Origin: Candidatus Tectimicrobiota bacterium
GTDB taxonomy: Bacteria > Tectomicrobia > Entotheonellia > Entotheonellales > Entotheonellaceae
Reading direction: 5' to 3'
Length of the DNA: 64,000 nucleotides
NCBI GenBank assembly: GCA_026005175.1
Contig: BPKO01000006.1
Coordinates: 1 to 64,000 of the forward strand
Shown here: piece after piece, positions 552 to 18,945 of the stretch
How the letters are laid out: every line of letters starts with the position of its first letter
Position numbering within the stretch: the stretch's first letter is position 1
Translations under genes and position numbers: made by a program
Notes under the pieces: model-generated
Databases searched by the model: none
What the model saw: only the letters and a program-made list of their open reading frames with translations
What the model was told of the DNA's origin: nothing

Positions 552-1295
552 CTACCACACCGCCTGCGGCAGCGGCAGGCCTGCAAAGGCGTCGGCGGGC
601 AGCGGCAGCGACGACGTGATGCCCGCCGCGTCGAGCAGGGCGTAGAGCTGCCGCAGGTGCTGCGCCGCGTGCCACACGGTGCGCTCGAGCAAGTCCGCGG
701 GCCACCTGGCGGCCGTAGTAAGTGTCGACCTCGCCGGCAGTGGCGTGAGGCTGCCCCAGCCATGCCGCCAGCTGCCGGCGCACCCTTTCGCCGTAAGCGG
801 CCAGCGCCTCCCCGCTGTCGAGGGCGCTGGCGGCCGCTCCTCAAACCACGCCTCGGGCAGGTAGCCCTGTTCTTTGGCGTCGCGGTAGCTCAGGGCAACA
901 CGAAAAATATGGTAGCCCAAGTCGCGCAGGGTGCGGTCGCGCCCCGGGGTTTTCACCGCCAGGTGCTGTGGGGGCACCTGGCGCAGGGCCTGGGGGGCCG
1001 CGGCTTCCAGGATGCGGTCGAGGCGGCGGCCCAGTTCCTCCGGCGGCAGCCGCTCCCCCTCGGCGTAAGCCACCCCCAGCAGTTCTGCCAGCGCCTTGGG
1101 ATTCCATCCGTGCACGGCGCGCTCGCCCGCCACCACCGCCGGCACGCGGGGAATACCCAGGCGGGCCAGCTCCTGCATGGCGGCAGGCTGTGCCTCGGTA
1201 TCGATGGCCACAAAGGCAATGCCCCACGACGAAAGCAACTCTTTCGTTTTGGCGCACGAGCTTCAGCCCGGCCGGTAGTAAAGACGCACCGTCAT
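552..1295 (-). CDS. Selenocysteine glutaredoxin fused to a DinB-like domain
   Basis: The reading frame starts at ATG 1295 after a GAGGGGAG ribosome site and runs MTVRLYYRPG, then an in-frame TGA (1265-1263), then SSCAKTKELL. A glutaredoxin/thioredoxin-fold protein would have Cys there, so the motif is U11-S-S-C14. The fold continues with a conserved cis-proline region (IPRVPAVVAGE) to about residue 75. After a linker comes a DinB/YfiT-like helical domain (LGYHIFRVALSYRDA, later WHAAQHLRQLYALLD). Between about 840 and 690 the conserved sequence moves to another frame (QLAAWLGQPHATAGEVDTYYGRQ) and back, so two compensating indels are present. The Sec assignment rests on the position of TGA at the redox site and the hairpin at 1229-1247. 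The function is probably thiol/selenol redox with an unknown partner. The alternative, an internal stop from a TGC-to-TGA error, is less likely given three similar cases in the window. Confidence 0.78.
1229..1247 (-). promoter_or_regulatory. Candidate bacterial SECIS hairpin of the glutaredoxin-DinB gene
   Basis: On the coding strand, 15 nt after the in-frame TGA, ACGAAAG (1247-1241) pairs perfectly with CTTTCGT (1235-1229) around loop AGTTG. The loop begins 23 nt after the TGA and its second base is G. A short stem with G in the first two loop bases at about 16-37 nt from UGA is what bacterial SelB-binding SECIS elements look like. The same spacing recurs at the other three candidate selenoprotein genes here. 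Confidence 0.6.
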
Positions 1296-10806: not shown

Positions 10807-11201
10807 AGTTCTGGGTCGATACCAACGTGCTCGTGCGCCTTGTCACAAAGGAACCGGCGGCGTCTTTCCGCCGCGCCCTGGCCCTGGTGGAGGAGGCGGA
10901 AGCGGGACGCCTGTCCCTGGCCGTGCATCCCCTCCACGTGGCGGAGGCCACGTACGTCTTGCGAGCCCTCTATGGCTATTGCCGGGAAGCCATCCGGGAC
11001 GACTTGGGCGTCGTCCTCCGGCTTCGCGCCTTGAAAGTTTACGATGAGGGCCGGGTGAGACGGGCTCTGGAGTGGATGGCTGCCCGGAACGTCGACTTCG
11101 ACGACGCCTACCTGGCCCTCTGGGCTTCAGACCGTGGCGAGGGCGTGGCGTCTTTTGACCGGGATTTTGCCCGATTACCGGTGCAGTGGCGAGAGCCTTA
11201 A
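10803..11201 (+). CDS. vapC: PIN-domain ribonuclease toxin (VapC type)
   Basis: 132 residues with PIN acidic residues in order: D6 in WVDTNVLVRL, E in HVAEATYVL, and the D-x-D-D cluster in NVDFDDAYLALWA, then SFDRDFARL near the C-terminus. Such toxins cleave RNA, often initiator tRNA or rRNA. It is translationally coupled to vapB. The frame is intact. Confidence 0.9.
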   Translation: MKFWVDTNVLVRLVTKEPAASFRRALALVEEAEAGRLSLAVHPLHVAEATYVLRALYGYCREAIRDDLGVVLRLRALKVYDEGRVRRALEWMAARNVDFDDAYLALWASDRGEGVASFDRDFARLPVQWREP

Positions 11202-11272
11202 CGTGCCAGACCTTGCACCGCCAGCGGCGCGCGGGCGCCAAGGGCCTTTTTCCCTCGCAGAGGAGCCAAGCC

Positions 11273-11914
11273 ATGACGCCAGCTTGTCCCGGGGCGGCAG
11301 ACCGCCTGTCCCAGCTGCTGGCCACTTTGCCCCGCTACTGCCCGGCGGAGCAGCGCTTCGCCTTGCAGCTCTACCGCCGGCTGGCCACCGGAGAGCCGGT
11401 GCCCCGCGCCGCCCTAGCAGCCGAAGAGGCCCTCTGGCAGCGCTTTGCCGGCCGCCTGCGCGATGACGCCGCGGGACGGGTGGTGGCCTTTGGCGGCCTG
11501 TCGCTGCTGCCCACGGCGCACCGCATGGAGGTCGCCGGCCGCCTGCTGTACGCCTGGTGCGCCTGGGATACCCTGTTCCTGCCGGCGCTGCTGCAGCAGC
11601 CGGCCCGGGTCACTTCGTCTTGCGCCGTGACCGCCACCCCCGTGTGCCTGGAAGTGACGCCGCAGCGCCTTGCCCGCTGCCAGCCCGCCAGCGCCGTGGT
11701 GTCGTTTGTGGTGCCTGCCGCCTGGGAGGGCGACGTGGTGGCCGCTTTTTGCTGCCACGTGCGCTTCTTCCGCGACCTGGCCACCGGCCGGCAGGGGCTG
11801 GCGTCACACCCTGAAGCCTGGCTGCTGCCGGTGGCCGAGGCCTTTGCCCTTGGCCAGCGCAAAGTCGCCTTGCAGTTTGACGCCGTGGCGCTTGGGCAAT
11901 GCGAGGCATGCTGA
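11273..11914 (+). CDS. merB: Alkylmercury (organomercurial) lyase
   Basis: MerB splits the carbon-mercury bond of organomercurials and hands Hg(II) to MerA or a thiol carrier. This 213-residue protein has the catalytic residues at classical positions: C96 and D99 in YAWCAWDT, structural C117 in TSSCAVT, and the second catalytic Cys within FCCH at residues 160-161. The start at ATG 11273 follows AGAGGAGCC; codons upstream are open but the length from this start matches the family. Its end overlaps merR by 7 nt. Broad-spectrum (organomercurial) resistance is implied. Confidence 0.95.
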   Translation: MTPACPGAADRLSQLLATLPRYCPAEQRFALQLYRRLATGEPVPRAALAAEEALWQRFAGRLRDDAAGRVVAFGGLSLLPTAHRMEVAGRLLYAWCAWDTLFLPALLQQPARVTSSCAVTATPVCLEVTPQRLARCQPASAVVSFVVPAAWEGDVVAAFCCHVRFFRDLATGRQGLASHPEAWLLPVAEAFALGQRKVALQFDAVALGQCEAC

Positions 11915-12315
11915 AAATCGGCCAGCTCGCCGCCCGCTCGGGGCTGAGCCGCGACGCCATTCGCTTTTACGAACGCGAGGGGCTGCTGCCCCGGGCGCCC
12001 CGCACCCCGAGCGGCTACCGCCTCTACGCCCCGGAAACCCTGACGCGCCTGCAGTTCATTAAGCGCGCCCAGGCCCTGGGCTTTTCGCTTGCCGAGATCC
12101 GGGAGCTGCTTGCCGGCTACCAGGACCCCGAGGAGTGCCGGCGCGTCAAGGCGCTGCTGGAGCAGAAAATCGCCGAGCTCGACCGCAAGCTGCACGACAT
12201 GCAAGCCCTGCGTGCCGTGCTCGCCCGCTACCACGAGGCCTGCTGCCAGGCCCTGGCCACCCCCCAGCCGCCCCAGCCCTGCCCAGTGCTGCAGCTCATC
12301 CACGATGCCCCTTGA
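11908..12315 (+). CDS. merR: Mercury-responsive MerR regulator
   Basis: 135 residues. The N-terminal winged helix (LKIGQLAARSGLSRDAIRFYERE) is followed by the long dimerisation helix. The three Hg-binding cysteines of MerR are in place: C in DPEECRRVK, the EACC pair and QPCPVLQ. It should repress the mer promoter without Hg(II) and untwist the 20 bp spacer when Hg(II) binds. The start is ATG 11908 inside the end of merB, so merB and merR are co-translated. Its TGA stop lies within the -35 box of the downstream promoter. Confidence 0.93.
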   Translation: MLKIGQLAARSGLSRDAIRFYEREGLLPRAPRTPSGYRLYAPETLTRLQFIKRAQALGFSLAEIRELLAGYQDPEECRRVKALLEQKIAELDRKLHDMQALRAVLARYHEACCQALATPQPPQPCPVLQLIHDAP

Positions 12316-12376: not shown

Positions 12377-12709
12377 ATGGCACGACGGCACTGGTACGGC
12401 AAGGAGGGGCTGCTCGGCCTGGGGGCGGCGCTGGCCGCCTCCACGTGCTGCCTGCTGCCCCTGGCGGTGGTGTTCCTGGGGCTGGGCAGCGGCGCCTTCA
12501 TGATGACCACCATGCGCTGGCGCCCGGTACTCCTGCCCCTGGGGCTGTTGGGGCTGGCGGCGGCTTATTACCTGCACTTCCGCGAGCGGCGCCGCTGCCG
12601 CACCCAGGGCTGCGCCATGGCCGGCAAGACCTTCAACACGGTGATGCTGGCGCTGGCCACGCTGATCATGCTTGGCGTGATCTGGGCTGACTTTTTTGCC
12701 GCCCGCTAA
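12377..12709 (+). CDS. merT: Mercuric transport protein MerT
   Basis: 110 residues with three membrane spans. The first span carries the Hg-relay pair in AASTCCLLPLAV. The cytoplasmic loop has RRRCRTQGCAMAGKTF with the second cysteine pair, and the third span is MLALATLIMLGVIWADF. It takes Hg(II) from a periplasmic carrier and passes it inward toward MerA. GGGAGGAAG precedes the ATG and it is the first gene after the mer promoter. The frame is intact. Confidence 0.92.
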   Translation: MARRHWYGKEGLLGLGAALAASTCCLLPLAVVFLGLGSGAFMMTTMRWRPVLLPLGLLGLAAAYYLHFRERRRCRTQGCAMAGKTFNTVMLALATLIMLGVIWADFFAAR

Positions 12710-12720
12710 AGGAGAAGCGT

Positions 12721-12972
12721 ATGCACCCGGAAGTGGTGGTCTACACGGCAGCCTCGTGAGGGGCCTGCCAGCACGTGAAAGAGTTTCTTTCCGCACACGG
12801 TATTGCCTTTACCCCGCGCGACGTGACCCGGGATCCTGCCGCCCGGCAGGCGCTGCTGGCCCTCACCGGACAGTCGGCCACGCCGGTGGTGGTGGTGGGA
12901 AACGAAGTGGTGGTGGGCTTCGACCGCGGCCGGCTGCAGCGCCTGCTGCGCCTGCACCAGGAGGCTCGCTGA
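12721..12972 (+). CDS. Selenocysteine-containing glutaredoxin-like protein in the mer operon
   Basis: An 83-residue glutaredoxin/NrdH-like fold. The frame reads MHPEVVVYTAAS, TGA (12757-12759), GACQHVKEFLSAHGI, so the active site is U13-G-A-C16 where homologues have CxxC. The remainder is standard: FTPRDVTRDPAARQALLAL, then SATPVVVVGNEVVVGFD with the cis-Pro and the GFD end motif. GGAGAAG precedes the ATG 11 bp after merT, and its stop overlaps the next start (TGATG). A hairpin at 12777-12791 is a candidate SECIS. It probably reduces or carries mercury or mercury-modified thiols in the cytoplasm. Read without recoding it would be a 12-residue peptide, which is implausible in an intact operon. 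Confidence 0.85.
12777..12791 (+). promoter_or_regulatory. Candidate SECIS hairpin of the mer glutaredoxin
   Basis: GAAAGA (12777-12782), loop GTT, TCTTTC (12786-12791). The loop starts 24 nt after the TGA and begins with G, matching the position and loop rule at the other three genes. Confidence 0.55.
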
Positions 12973-13262
12973 TGCGGCTCCTTTGTCCCGGCTGCGGCCA
13001 GGCGCGCGAGCTTGGCCCCGAGGTGCGCCTCGGCGACGAGCTTACCTGCGAGGCCTGCGCCGGCGTGCTGCTGCAGGTAGTCGAAGAAAACGGCGTCTTG
13101 AGCCTGCGCGAGGTGCCGCAGGCTTCCTGCCCGCAGTGCGAAACGCGCCTGCGCCTGCCCGCGGGCGTGCAACCCGGCGACACCCTGGTGCACTGCGGCC
13201 GGCGCCTGGTGGTGACGTACGCCTTTGGCGCTTACGCCCTCGAGCCGCCAGGGCGCTTCTAA
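12972..13262 (+). CDS. Small zinc-ribbon protein of the mer operon
   Basis: 96 residues with three cysteine pairs: CPGCGQ at the N-terminus, TCEAC near residue 28 and SCPQCET near residue 56, plus a lone HCGRR near residue 76. The layout suggests two zinc-ribbon or rubredoxin-like knuckles. It is coupled to the Sec-glutaredoxin gene (start overlaps its stop). I do not recognise a named family. A role in metal (mercury or zinc) binding is inferred from cysteine content and context only. Confidence 0.75.
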   Translation: MRLLCPGCGQARELGPEVRLGDELTCEACAGVLLQVVEENGVLSLREVPQASCPQCETRLRLPAGVQPGDTLVHCGRRLVVTYAFGAYALEPPGRF

Positions 13263-13298
13263 AGGGGTCTAGCGCCCTCCTCGTCAAGGAGACACGCC

Positions 13299-13655
13299 AT
13301 GCAACGCCAAGCACGAATAGCCGCAGTCCTGCTCTTGCTGCTGGTGCTGCTGGCGGGCTGCGGCACCTCGGAGGCGCCGGGCAACGGCGCTTCGCCGTCG
13401 GCTGGAGCGGCCCCGACGTCCTCCCCCGCGTCCCTGCAGCGCCTCACCCTGCGCATTACCGGCATGTCGTGAGGCTCCTGAGCGCTCATCGTGCAACTGG
13501 CCTTGGCAAGGCTGGAAGGCGTTTACGAGGCAAAAGTGAGCTTTGGCGAGCAGCGCGCCTGGGTGCAGTACGACCCGCAGAAGGTAACGGCAGCGCAGAT
13601 GATAGAGGCGGTGCAGCGCGCTGGCTTTGGCGCCGAAGTCCTGGCAAGCGATTAG
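13299..13655 (+). CDS. MerP-like HMA lipoprotein with double selenocysteine (UxxU)
   Basis: 118 codons. A lipoprotein signal peptide (residues 1-20, lipobox LAG-C21) leads to a low-complexity linker and an HMA ferredoxin-like domain (residues 48-118). The metal motif reads GMS-TGA-GS-TGA-AL (TGA at 13470-13472 and 13479-13481) where MerP and CopZ-type domains have GMTCxxC. After both TGAs the domain continues perfectly: LALARLEGVYEAKVSFGE, VQYDPQKVTAAQMIEAVQRA, GFGAEVL. The start at ATG 13299 follows AAGGAGA. It should sit on the outer face of the inner membrane, or in the periplasm, as the Hg(II) collector feeding MerT, using two selenols. A hairpin follows at 13497-13515. No other MerP is present in the operon, which supports the role. 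Confidence 0.83.
13497..13515 (+). promoter_or_regulatory. Candidate SECIS hairpin of the HMA selenoprotein
   Basis: CTGGCCTT (13497-13504) pairs with AAGGCTGG (13508-13515) with two G-U pairs, loop GGC. The loop begins 24 nt after the second TGA and 33 nt after the first, so one hairpin could serve both codons. Confidence 0.6.
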
Positions 13656-13670: not shown

Positions 13671-14282
13671 ATGGCCCCGCTCTGGCGGCGCCAGGCGGCA
13701 GCGCCGGCCGATGCCGCCCTCATGCAACGGGTGGTGGCCGGCGACGCCGAAGCCTTTGCGCAGCTGGTGCGCCGCTACGAGCATCCCCTTTACAACTACC
13801 TGCGGCGCATGGTCCAAGACGAGGCGCTGGCCGCCGACTTGCTGCAGGAGACCTGGCTGCGCCTTTTCCAGCACGCCCACCGCTACGATCCTGCCCGCCC
13901 GCTGAGCACCTGGCTGTTTGCCATTGCCTACCACAGCTGCCTCGACGCCCTGCGCCAGCGGCAGCGCCGCCAGGTCGTAACGTCCGCCGCTGCCGCCCCT
14001 GGCCCCGCCGATCCCCAGCGGGCGCTGCTCGCCCAGGAAGCGCAGGCGGCGGTGCGGGCCGCGGTGGCCAGCCTGCCGCCAGCGCAGCGGGCGGTGCTGC
14101 TCCTGCGCCACTACCACGGCCTGTCGTACCAGGAAATCGCTGCCGTGGTGCAGTGCCCGGTGGGCACGGTGAAGTCGCGCCTGCACCACGCCCTGCGCCA
14201 CTTGCAGCAGACGCTGGCGGCCTGGGGCGTGGTGGAAAACGCCGCCACCGACAGGCTCGTGGAGAAAACCCGCGGCGAGTGA
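13671..14282 (+). CDS. ECF-family RNA polymerase sigma factor
   Basis: 203 residues. Region 2 is at about residues 20-95 (ALMQRVVAGDAEAFAQLVRRY, LQETWLRLFQHAHRYDP, LSTWLFAIAYHSCLDALRQR). Region 4 is at about 125-180 (LPPAQRAVLLLRHYHGLSYQEIA, VGTVKSRLHHALRHL). The start is ATG 13671 after GGGGAGAGCAGCC. It lies inside the mercury operon, 16 bp after the Sec-HMA gene, and its likely anti-sigma partner is at 14959-15771. It probably directs a stress regulon linked to metal exposure; the target promoters were not identified. Confidence 0.88.
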   Translation: MAPLWRRQAAAPADAALMQRVVAGDAEAFAQLVRRYEHPLYNYLRRMVQDEALAADLLQETWLRLFQHAHRYDPARPLSTWLFAIAYHSCLDALRQRQRRQVVTSAAAAPGPADPQRALLAQEAQAAVRAAVASLPPAQRAVLLLRHYHGLSYQEIAAVVQCPVGTVKSRLHHALRHLQQTLAAWGVVENAATDRLVEKTRGE

Positions 14283-14339: not shown

Positions 14340-14642
14340 ATGGCCACCCCCCCGATAGCCCGACGGCGCTGGCGCGCCACTCTGAGCGTGGTCGTTGCTT
14401 TGCTGACTTGTCCCTGCCACTTGCCGCTGTGGCTCGCGCTCCTGGCGGGCACGGCGGCAGGCGGCTGGCTTAGCCACCACCTGTGGCTGGTGCTGCCGGC
14501 CATGGGAGGTCTTTTCGCGGGGGCGCTGTGGGTTGCCGCCCGTGCCCTGGCCGGCGGTGAGGCGGCGTGCTGTACGGCGGCGCCAGAGCAGGCGGAGAAA
14601 GGTGCGCCCTCCGCCGACGCCGTCGCGGAGAAGCGGCCATGA
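14340..14642 (+). CDS. merE: MerE-like mercury transporter
   Basis: 100 residues with the MerE hallmark TCPCHLPLWLALLAGTAAGG in the first span and a second span LWLVLPAMGGLFAGALWV. MerE carries inorganic and methylmercury across the inner membrane. The C-terminal tail adds CC near residue 77. AGAAGGAGA precedes the ATG. It overlaps the next gene by 4 nt (ATGA). Confidence 0.85.
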   Translation: MATPPIARRRWRATLSVVVALLTCPCHLPLWLALLAGTAAGGWLSHHLWLVLPAMGGLFAGALWVAARALAGGEAACCTAAPEQAEKGAPSADAVAEKRP

Positions 14643-14944
14643 GCGGGCGCTGGTGGAGCGCAGGGTCGGTGCTGGCAGCGCTGGGCGTGGCGGTGTGCTG
14701 CCTGGGGCCGCTGCTGTTTGCGGCGCTGGGGCTGAGCACGCTGACCAGCCTGTGGCTCCTGCGCCACCTGGTGCCGTACCGCAACGTCTTTCTGGCCCTC
14801 ACGTTTTTCTTCCTCGGCCTGGCGTTTTATGCCACTTACCGCCGTGGCCGGCGGGCCCGCTGGCCCGAACAGGCGGTGCTGTGGGGGGCGACGGCCTTGG
14901 CCTTGGGGCTGGTGGGCTACAGCCTGGCCGTGGAAGGGTTTTGA
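14639..14944 (+). CDS. MerT/MerC-like membrane protein
   Basis: 101 residues with three predicted spans. The first holds a vicinal pair (LGVAVCCLGPLLFAALG) like MerT, followed by FLALTFFFLGLAFYATYRR. Unlike MerT it lacks the cytoplasmic cysteine pair. It is the second MerT-like protein in the operon and is translationally coupled to merE. An Hg(II) import role is inferred. Confidence 0.75.
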   Translation: MSGRWWSAGSVLAALGVAVCCLGPLLFAALGLSTLTSLWLLRHLVPYRNVFLALTFFFLGLAFYATYRRGRRARWPEQAVLWGATALALGLVGYSLAVEGF

Positions 14945-17531: not shown

Positions 17532-18945
17532 ATGTACGACTACGACCTGCTGGTCATTGGCACCGGCGGTGGGGGAATGGCGGCCGCCATCCGCGGCGCC
17601 GAGCTGGGAGCGCGGGTGGCCATTGTCGAAGCCGGCACCATCGGCGGCACCTGCGTCAACCGCGGCTGCGTGCCCTCCAAGACTCTCATGCGCGCCGCCT
17701 TGGTCTACCACCAGGCCGGCCACCACGGCTTTGCCGGCGTGCACACGCGCCAGGAAGGCGTCGACTGGCCCAAGCTCATCGCCCAGAAGGAGGCCCTCAT
17801 CGAGGGCCTGCGCCAGGAGAAGTACCTCGACGTGCTGGCCGCTTACGACCGCATTACTTTGCTGCGCGGCTGGGCACGGCTGCAAGGAGAAGGCCGCGTC
17901 GCCGTAAGCGAGCGCCTCTACCGCGCCCAATACGTCGTGCTGGCCACCGGAGCGCGCCCGCACATCCTGCCTCTGGAAGGCATCGAGACGGTGGAAGTGC
18001 TCACCAGCACCACCGCCATGACCCTGCCGCAGCAGCCGCGCTCCTTGCTGGTCATCGGCGGCCGTGCCGTGGCGCTGGAGCTGGGACAGATCTTTGCCCG
18101 CCTGGGCACGCGCGTCACCCTCTTGCAGCGCAGCCCCCGCCTTTTGCCCGAGCACGAGCCGGTGATTGCCGAGGCCCCTGGCCGACTACCTGCGGCAAGA
18201 AGGACTGGAGGTGCTCACCGGGGTGCGCCCCCTGGCCATTCGCCAGGAAGGCAGCGAAAAAGTGGTGCTGGCCGACGTCAACGGCCAACCGCGGCCTTTT
18301 CGTGCCGAGCAGGTGCTCATGGCCACCGGGCGGGTGCCCAACACCCAGGACCTGGGGCTGGAGACGCTGGGCATTGCCAGGCGTGAGGGCGGCGCCATCG
18401 AAGTGGACGCCACCCTGCGCACCAGCCACCCCCGCGTCTACGCCGTGGGCGACTGCACCACCTTGCCGCAGCTCGTCTACGTGGCGGCAGCGGCCGGCAG
18501 CATGGCAGCAGAAAACGCCCTCACCGGCGCCGGCAAGCCGCTCGACCTCACCGTGCTGCCCGACGTGATCTTCACCGATCCCCAGGTGGCCACTGTGGGC
18601 CTCACCGAGGCGCAGGCGCAAGCAGCCGGCTATGTGGTGCAGACGGCGGTGCTGCCTTTGGCTTACGTGCCGCGGGCCATTGCGGCGCGCGACACGCGCG
18701 GGCTCATCAAGCTGGTGGTCGACGCCGCCAGCGGTCGCTTGCTGGGGGCGCACGTGCTGGCCGCCGAAGGCGGGGAGGTGATCCAGACGGCGGCGCTGGC
18801 CATCGAGTGCGGGCGGCGCTACGGCTTTCGCGTCGAGGACCTGCGCCAGCTGCTCTTCCCTTACCTGGTGCAAGTCGAAGGGCTGAAGCTGGCGGCGCAG
18901 ACCTTGGCCAAAGACGTCACCAAGCTCTCCTGCTGCGCCGGCTAA
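17532..18945 (+). CDS. merA: Mercuric reductase (one frameshift)
   Basis: MerA reduces Hg(II) to volatile Hg(0) with NADPH and FAD in the cytoplasm. The N-terminal FAD motif is VIGTGGGGMAAAIRGAELG, the redox pair C41/C46 is in GGTCVNRGCVPSK, the NADPH domain starts SLLVIGGRAVALELGQ, and the C-terminus ends KLSCCAG, the Cys pair that delivers Hg(II). There is no N-terminal HMA domain. Near 18170-18180 the frame changes (family sequence resumes LADYLRQEGLEVLTGV), a single-base indel. The stop TAA (18943-18945) runs into a GGGACAGG repeat, which probably terminates the mer transcript. Confidence 0.93.

Follow-up and report, generated by a model that had tools for sequence, protein, structure and literature searches.

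A gene in the 64-kb stretch of DNA analyzed here (the window) encodes a MerP-like HMA lipoprotein in which both metal-binding Cys positions are specified by in-frame TGA codons, and the comparative evidence supports reading both TGAs as selenocysteine (Sec) codons rather than as errors. This reading is based on the Sec machinery of the source genome, on two-TGA homologues in other lineages, on a conserved SECIS-type hairpin, and on a co-conserved Sec-glutaredoxin gene, all of which agree with the initial annotation, which had placed Sec at both metal positions of the HMA domain. We infer that Sec would be inserted at both sites of the protein (here referred to as the UxxU protein). It is probable that this lipoprotein serves as a MerP-like envelope carrier with selenolate ligands for a soft metal ion, of which Hg(II) is the likeliest, and that a single SECIS serves both UGAs. 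The features of the region are listed in Table 1.

Table 1. Features of the UxxU gene and its surroundings (window coordinates)
Feature	Position	Strand	Evidence or remark
MerB-like organomercurial lyase, start codon uncertain	11186..11914	+	PF03243 110 bits; NF009710 166.8 bits
MerR-family metal-sensing regulator	11899..12315	+	NCBIfam and Pfam profiles
MerT-like membrane protein with CC pair	12377..12709	+	NCBIfam MerT 36.4 bits, under cut-off
Sec-glutaredoxin-like protein, predicted active site U-GA-C	12721..12972	+	PF00462 61.5 bits; Sec kept in L054, L055, L069, and others
Predicted Sec UGA of the glutaredoxin-like gene	12757..12759	+	TGA on first Cys of active site (UGAC)
Putative SECIS hairpin of the glutaredoxin-like gene, GAAAG-AGUUU-CUUUC	12777..12791	+	Conserved in homologues
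Small zinc-ribbon protein with three CxxC pairs and weak similarity to LysW	12972..13262	+	Co-conserved with the cassette
AAGGAG, ribosome-binding-like	13286..13291	+	Sequence, 5' of the UxxU gene
MerP-like UxxU HMA lipoprotein with two TGAs in frame	13299..13655	+	Frame translation; NF041115; Pfam HMA; Foldseek vs MerP 1osd
Lipobox Cys (LAGC), residue 21	13359..13361	+	Translated sequence
First predicted Sec UGA, residue 58	13470..13472	+	TGA at equivalent site in L054, L055, L069, L084
Second predicted Sec UGA, residue 61	13479..13481	+	TGA at equivalent site in L054, L055, L069, L084
Putative SECIS hairpin, CUGGCCUU-GGC-AAGGCUGG	13497..13515	+	Apical loop 13505-13507; common to both UGAs
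ECF sigma factor	13671..14282	+	NCBIfam and Pfam profiles
MerE-like mercury transporter	14340..14642	+	PF05052 36.8 bits
Second MerT-like protein	14639..14944	+	PF02411 34.5 bits; merT_RC607 57.3 bits
Mercuric reductase MerA, split over two frames	17532..18945	+	Frame change near 18170-18180

With TGA read as Sec, the UxxU gene yields a product of 118 residues (MQRQARIAAVLLLLLVLLAGC...RLTLRITGMS-U-GS-U-ALIVQLALARLEGVYEAKVSFGEQRAWVQYDPQKVTAAQMIEAVQRAGFGAEVLASD) that consists of a lipoprotein signal, a linker, and an HMA domain. The frame ends in TAG, and ahead of it the only in-frame stops are the two TGAs, which fall exactly on the metal-binding Cys positions of the metal loop (GMS-U-GS-U), as had been described from the letters of the sequence. 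The lipoprotein signal reported at the same time is indeed present, with an LAGC lipobox. When Cys was placed at the two Sec positions, the protein scored 47.4 bits against Pfam HMA (cut-off, 24.8). The predicted model shows the order strand-helix-strand-strand-helix-strand with a pLDDT of >90 across most of the domain, and its best solved Foldseek matches were HMA domains, including MerP (1osd at 1.0 Å and 1afi at 1.3 Å). Thus, the HMA fold around the motif is intact, as originally proposed. The chance that two random stops in 118 codons land on exactly both metal positions is ~1.4e-4, a figure that leaves aside the matching TGAs in the homologues and in the neighboring gene; together with these, it bears out the view that the TGA pair is very unlikely to be an error. 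A tblastn search of the 64-kb window gave no HMA besides the UxxU gene among the matches listed, in line with the proposed lack of a Cys-type MerP in the operon. Elsewhere in the genome, the open frames that contain HMA matches are 858 to 948 codons long, which is the size of P-type ATPases, with the exception of one further small UxxU protein.

When homologues were compared with TGA read as U, UxxU and mixed UxxC relatives of the kind that the initial annotation had suggested looking for were detected. A Candidatus Tectomicrobia genome (G052; L021/L054) harbors an HMA gene with TGA at both positions (GLTUGTU), and two Nitrospinota-type genomes (L055, titled Nitrospinae, and L069) harbor HMA genes with both TGAs in the motif GMVUGAU; L084 equals L055 over the compared stretch. 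Partly recoded relatives contain UxxC (GMSUPFC, GMTUASC, and GMTUSDC) or CxxU (GMVCGLU). Sec and Cys therefore exchange across the HMA homologues, with UxxU, UxxC, CxxU, and CxxC forms all occurring. Furthermore, 3' of the second TGA, the window gene differs from the GxUGxU homologues at 24 to 29 of 48 third codon positions and in 12 to 18 of 48 cases at first or second positions; such a third-position excess is the pattern of a gene under protein-level selection. The search set included one genome in the phylum of G052 and three in the phylum of G077, so that few further homologues were available. In plasmid and phage records, the matches to the UxxU gene were all below 60% identity and were mostly P-type ATPases. 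HMA lipoproteins of Planctomycetota (L056, L057 near 3974) have a UxxxU motif (GMTUGTGU), which is one residue longer than usual.

The putative SECIS hairpin has its loop 32 nt past the first UGA and 23 nt past the second. The bSECIS rules specify a loop of 3 to 9 nt, a stem of 4 to 16 bp, a G in the first two loop bases, a distance of 16 to 37 nt from the UGA, and an MFE of <= -7.5 (PMC13188914). With its GGC loop, 8 bp, and -8.8 kcal/mol, the hairpin lies within these limits for both UGAs. All five GxUGxU genes (window, L054, L055, L069, and L084) have it, with 7 to 8 bp and the same 32-nt spacing between the first UGA and the loop. The stem shows compensatory changes: pairs 2 and 3 vary between lineages as U-G/G-C/C-G and G-U/A-U, with pairing kept, and the outermost pair is missing in the Nitrospinota-type hairpins.

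The hairpin was compared with recoded controls, in which the downstream codons were swapped synonymously according to local codon usage, with the position fixed at +32. An equally good hairpin at +32 was obtained in 0.2% of the trials with the window gene and in 0/2000 trials with each of the three other tested genes (p=0.0005). Among Cys-type HMA domains, 1 of 47 reached -8 kcal/mol or better at +32, the mean being -1.7. The position-matched recoding and the 47 Cys-type controls argue against a chance hairpin, which we rejected. Since the +32 reference place was picked from the window gene, the independent test comes from the homologues, and the Nitrospinota-type genes, being close relatives, weigh approximately as one independent case. 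For the window gene alone, neither the hairpin with its position left free (p=0.42) nor the plain fold of the region (z=-0.22) was significant, and the case for a SECIS therefore rests on the comparison.

The Sec-glutaredoxin-like gene of the same cluster has homologues with TGA at the active-site position in at least eight other genomes. Their hairpins, with a consensus near that of the window gene, lie 22 to 23 nt after the UGA, and in the recoding test p was ~0.02 or less in 11 of 11 tested homologues, the window copy being weaker (p=0.08). Like the known Sec glutaredoxins and Uxx-star proteins (PF00462 and NF041212), the product would be a UxxC glutaredoxin, although its NF041212 score of 60.2 bits is under the cut-off of 66. 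A further glutaredoxin-like frame of the window (1077-1289, minus strand) has an ordinary CSSC site. In genome G035, TGA replaces Cys in the zinc-ribbon protein of the cassette (CPG-U and CPN-U; L070 1608-1883 and L073 1098-1367, both on the minus strand).

The source genome, which is a 3.99-Mb draft and 77.5% complete, encodes the Sec machinery: selA (637.8 bits), selB (391.5 bits), selD (378.9 bits), and tRNA-Sec (selC; 76.5 bits) were each matched above the curated cut-off. selA adjoins selB, and selD contains an in-frame TGA. In the window, TGA is the terminator of 15 of 39 long open frames. Since TGA is an ordinary stop in the window and the machinery is complete, UGA is not reassigned, and Sec insertion is available. 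That the organism generally reads UGA as an amino acid, which would explain the in-frame TGAs of two nearby genes without Sec, is hardly credible in view of the frequent TGA stops and the full Sec machinery and was rejected. That the UxxU gene is a pseudogene, or that its TGAs are misread TGC codons, is in our view highly improbable: the frame break in the nearby merA and the draft state of the genome are consistent with it, but independent genomes contain the identical two TGAs along with the conserved hairpin, third positions account for the excess of changes past the TGAs, and the active-site Cys of the neighboring glutaredoxin is also replaced by a TGA that is common to other genomes. On these grounds, this explanation was rejected as well, and we read both codons as probable Sec codons.

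The gene order in the window is MerB-like lyase, MerR-family regulator, MerT-like protein, Sec-glutaredoxin, zinc ribbon, UxxU lipoprotein, ECF sigma factor, MerE-like protein, and second MerT-like protein, with MerA farther on. The first MerT-like protein is 53 to 57% identical to the MerT of other cassettes. A cassette of MerT, Sec-glutaredoxin, zinc ribbon, and UxxU-HMA genes has the identical order in the window and in the Tectomicrobia contig L054. L055 and L069 also have these four genes clustered, with the zinc ribbon first, then the glutaredoxin, MerT, and the HMA gene, after which comes a UxxC thioredoxin-like gene. Judged from gene content and order, the strongest indication that the Sec genes may cooperate in mercury handling is the presence of this cassette in several lineages. 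The regulator, however, scored best against ZntR models and stayed under the MerR cut-off. The inducing metal might therefore be one other than mercury, and this counts against mercury. The merA break lies beside a CCCC run; the assembly may be wrong there, or the gene may be broken. A MerT-like protein in L055 (~1933, plus strand) and in L069 (minus strand) has two adjacent in-frame TGAs at its vicinal Cys pair (LLPNI-UU-ILPLVF).

A double-Sec HMA site is not a first, since UxxU HMA proteins are already catalogued. The family NF041115 (UxxU_metal_bind) likewise comprises HMA proteins with UxxU in place of CxxC. With Cys at the Sec places, the window protein scored 95.2 bits against it, only 0.2 above the cut-off of 95, and 81.9 bits with TGA scored as a stop, while the Tectomicrobia protein scored 108.5 bits and is over the cut-off. 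The window protein differs from the Tectomicrobia and Nitrospinota-type copies in being a lipoprotein with a linker of ~25 residues, whereas those have plain signal peptides. A 2026 review lists a UxxU "Metal-binding protein (putative mercuric reductase)" with two Sec residues, after Zhang and Gladyshev 2007, from an Olavius symbiont (PMC13188914). In a 2008 study of the Global Ocean Sampling data, "Mercuric transport protein MerP" is named as a selenoprotein family without Cys homologues (PMC2398784), a family that was compared with the window protein by name and description alone. NF045683 (MerT_CopZ_Se) also combines MerT and an HMA selenoprotein, but as a fusion, whereas these are separate genes in the window; the UxxU protein scored 41.4 bits vs the cut-off of 375.

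The initial annotation had called the protein MerP-like, and this holds in part. Export (signal and lipobox), a fold within 1.0 to 1.3 Å of 1osd and 1afi, the metal-pair loop, and the neighboring merT-like genes and merA are shared with MerP systems. On the other hand, MerP has a Cys pair where the window protein has the predicted Sec pair, and the TIGR02052 score of 52.9 bits misses the cut-off of 92.55, which suggests a protein that works like MerP but is not a MerP equivalog. In the papers that we read, the shared cassette, with its Sec-glutaredoxin and its single hairpin for both UGAs, was not found described. What this locus adds to the known families is its operon setting, a SECIS shared by both UGAs, and a new lineage, and not the UxxU motif itself.

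By analogy with mer systems, we infer that mercury is the ligand, in which direction it is transferred, and what the glutaredoxin does. The UxxU lipoprotein would hold Hg(II) between the two selenocysteines of its HMA domain, outside the inner membrane, and would hand it to the MerT-type transporters, as MerP does. Inside the cell, MerB would cleave organomercurials, and the Hg(II) set free would be reduced by MerA. The Sec-glutaredoxin has no signal peptide and therefore probably acts on the cytoplasmic side, in metal handling or in reduction of selenol/thiol ligands. SelB and tRNA-Sec would decode both UGAs through the one hairpin, the loop of which is within the allowed distance of both. 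Selenolates have the stronger affinity for Hg(II), as a matter of general chemistry, and the extreme affinity put forward in the initial annotation would be an extrapolation from that chemistry. Two Sec residues in the oxidizing periplasm would tend toward a diselenide, and this counts against a carrier. More tentatively, and with clear reservations, the UxxU carrier, the MerT proteins, including the forms with two adjacent TGAs in L055 and L069, and the Sec-glutaredoxin might form a conserved, Sec-based mercury relay. In it, the metal would be handed from one selenolate to the next, and a single SECIS would serve two Sec codons that lie six bases apart.

The metal might also be another soft one, for example, Cu(I), Ag(I), or Cd(II). 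HMA domains are not limited to one metal, the CopZ models gave 55.4 bits, which is close to the MerP models, and the best score of the regulator was that against ZntR. Nevertheless, we consider this unlikely, because the mercury-specific MerB, MerE, and MerA are encoded in the same stretch and MerT-like proteins on both sides of the UxxU gene. It is also rather improbable that the Sec pair is a redox site, which would make the protein a diselenide/diselenol oxidoreductase on an HMA scaffold that reduces, e.g., envelope disulfides or selenenylsulfides. The predicted fold is that of HMA and not of thioredoxin, the pair occupies the HMA metal-binding positions, and the surroundings are transporters and mercury enzymes, although many UxxC bacterial selenoproteins are oxidoreductases (table in PMC13188914) and the adjacent Sec gene encodes a glutaredoxin. 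A carrier of Hg(II) remains the preferred function.

The selenoproteins studied so far are mostly redox enzymes. A pair of Sec residues acting as metal ligands would allow the Se-Hg affinity that underlies selenium-mercury antagonism to be tested directly in a biological setting, for which the four-gene cassette is a defined system. Moreover, with two UGAs under one hairpin, the gene would lend itself well to work on the decoding of closely spaced Sec codons by SelB.

The second small UxxU HMA gene of the source genome is located on another contig (L050 7313-7813), has the motif GMIUPVU, and encodes a C-terminal extension. Its orthologue in the Nitrospinae contig L055 (1377-1829) has the motif GMVUPVU and also a C-terminal extension. 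Just upstream of this second type of UxxU gene, a larger, similar-looking protein with an SPRT motif is encoded in both L050 and L055.
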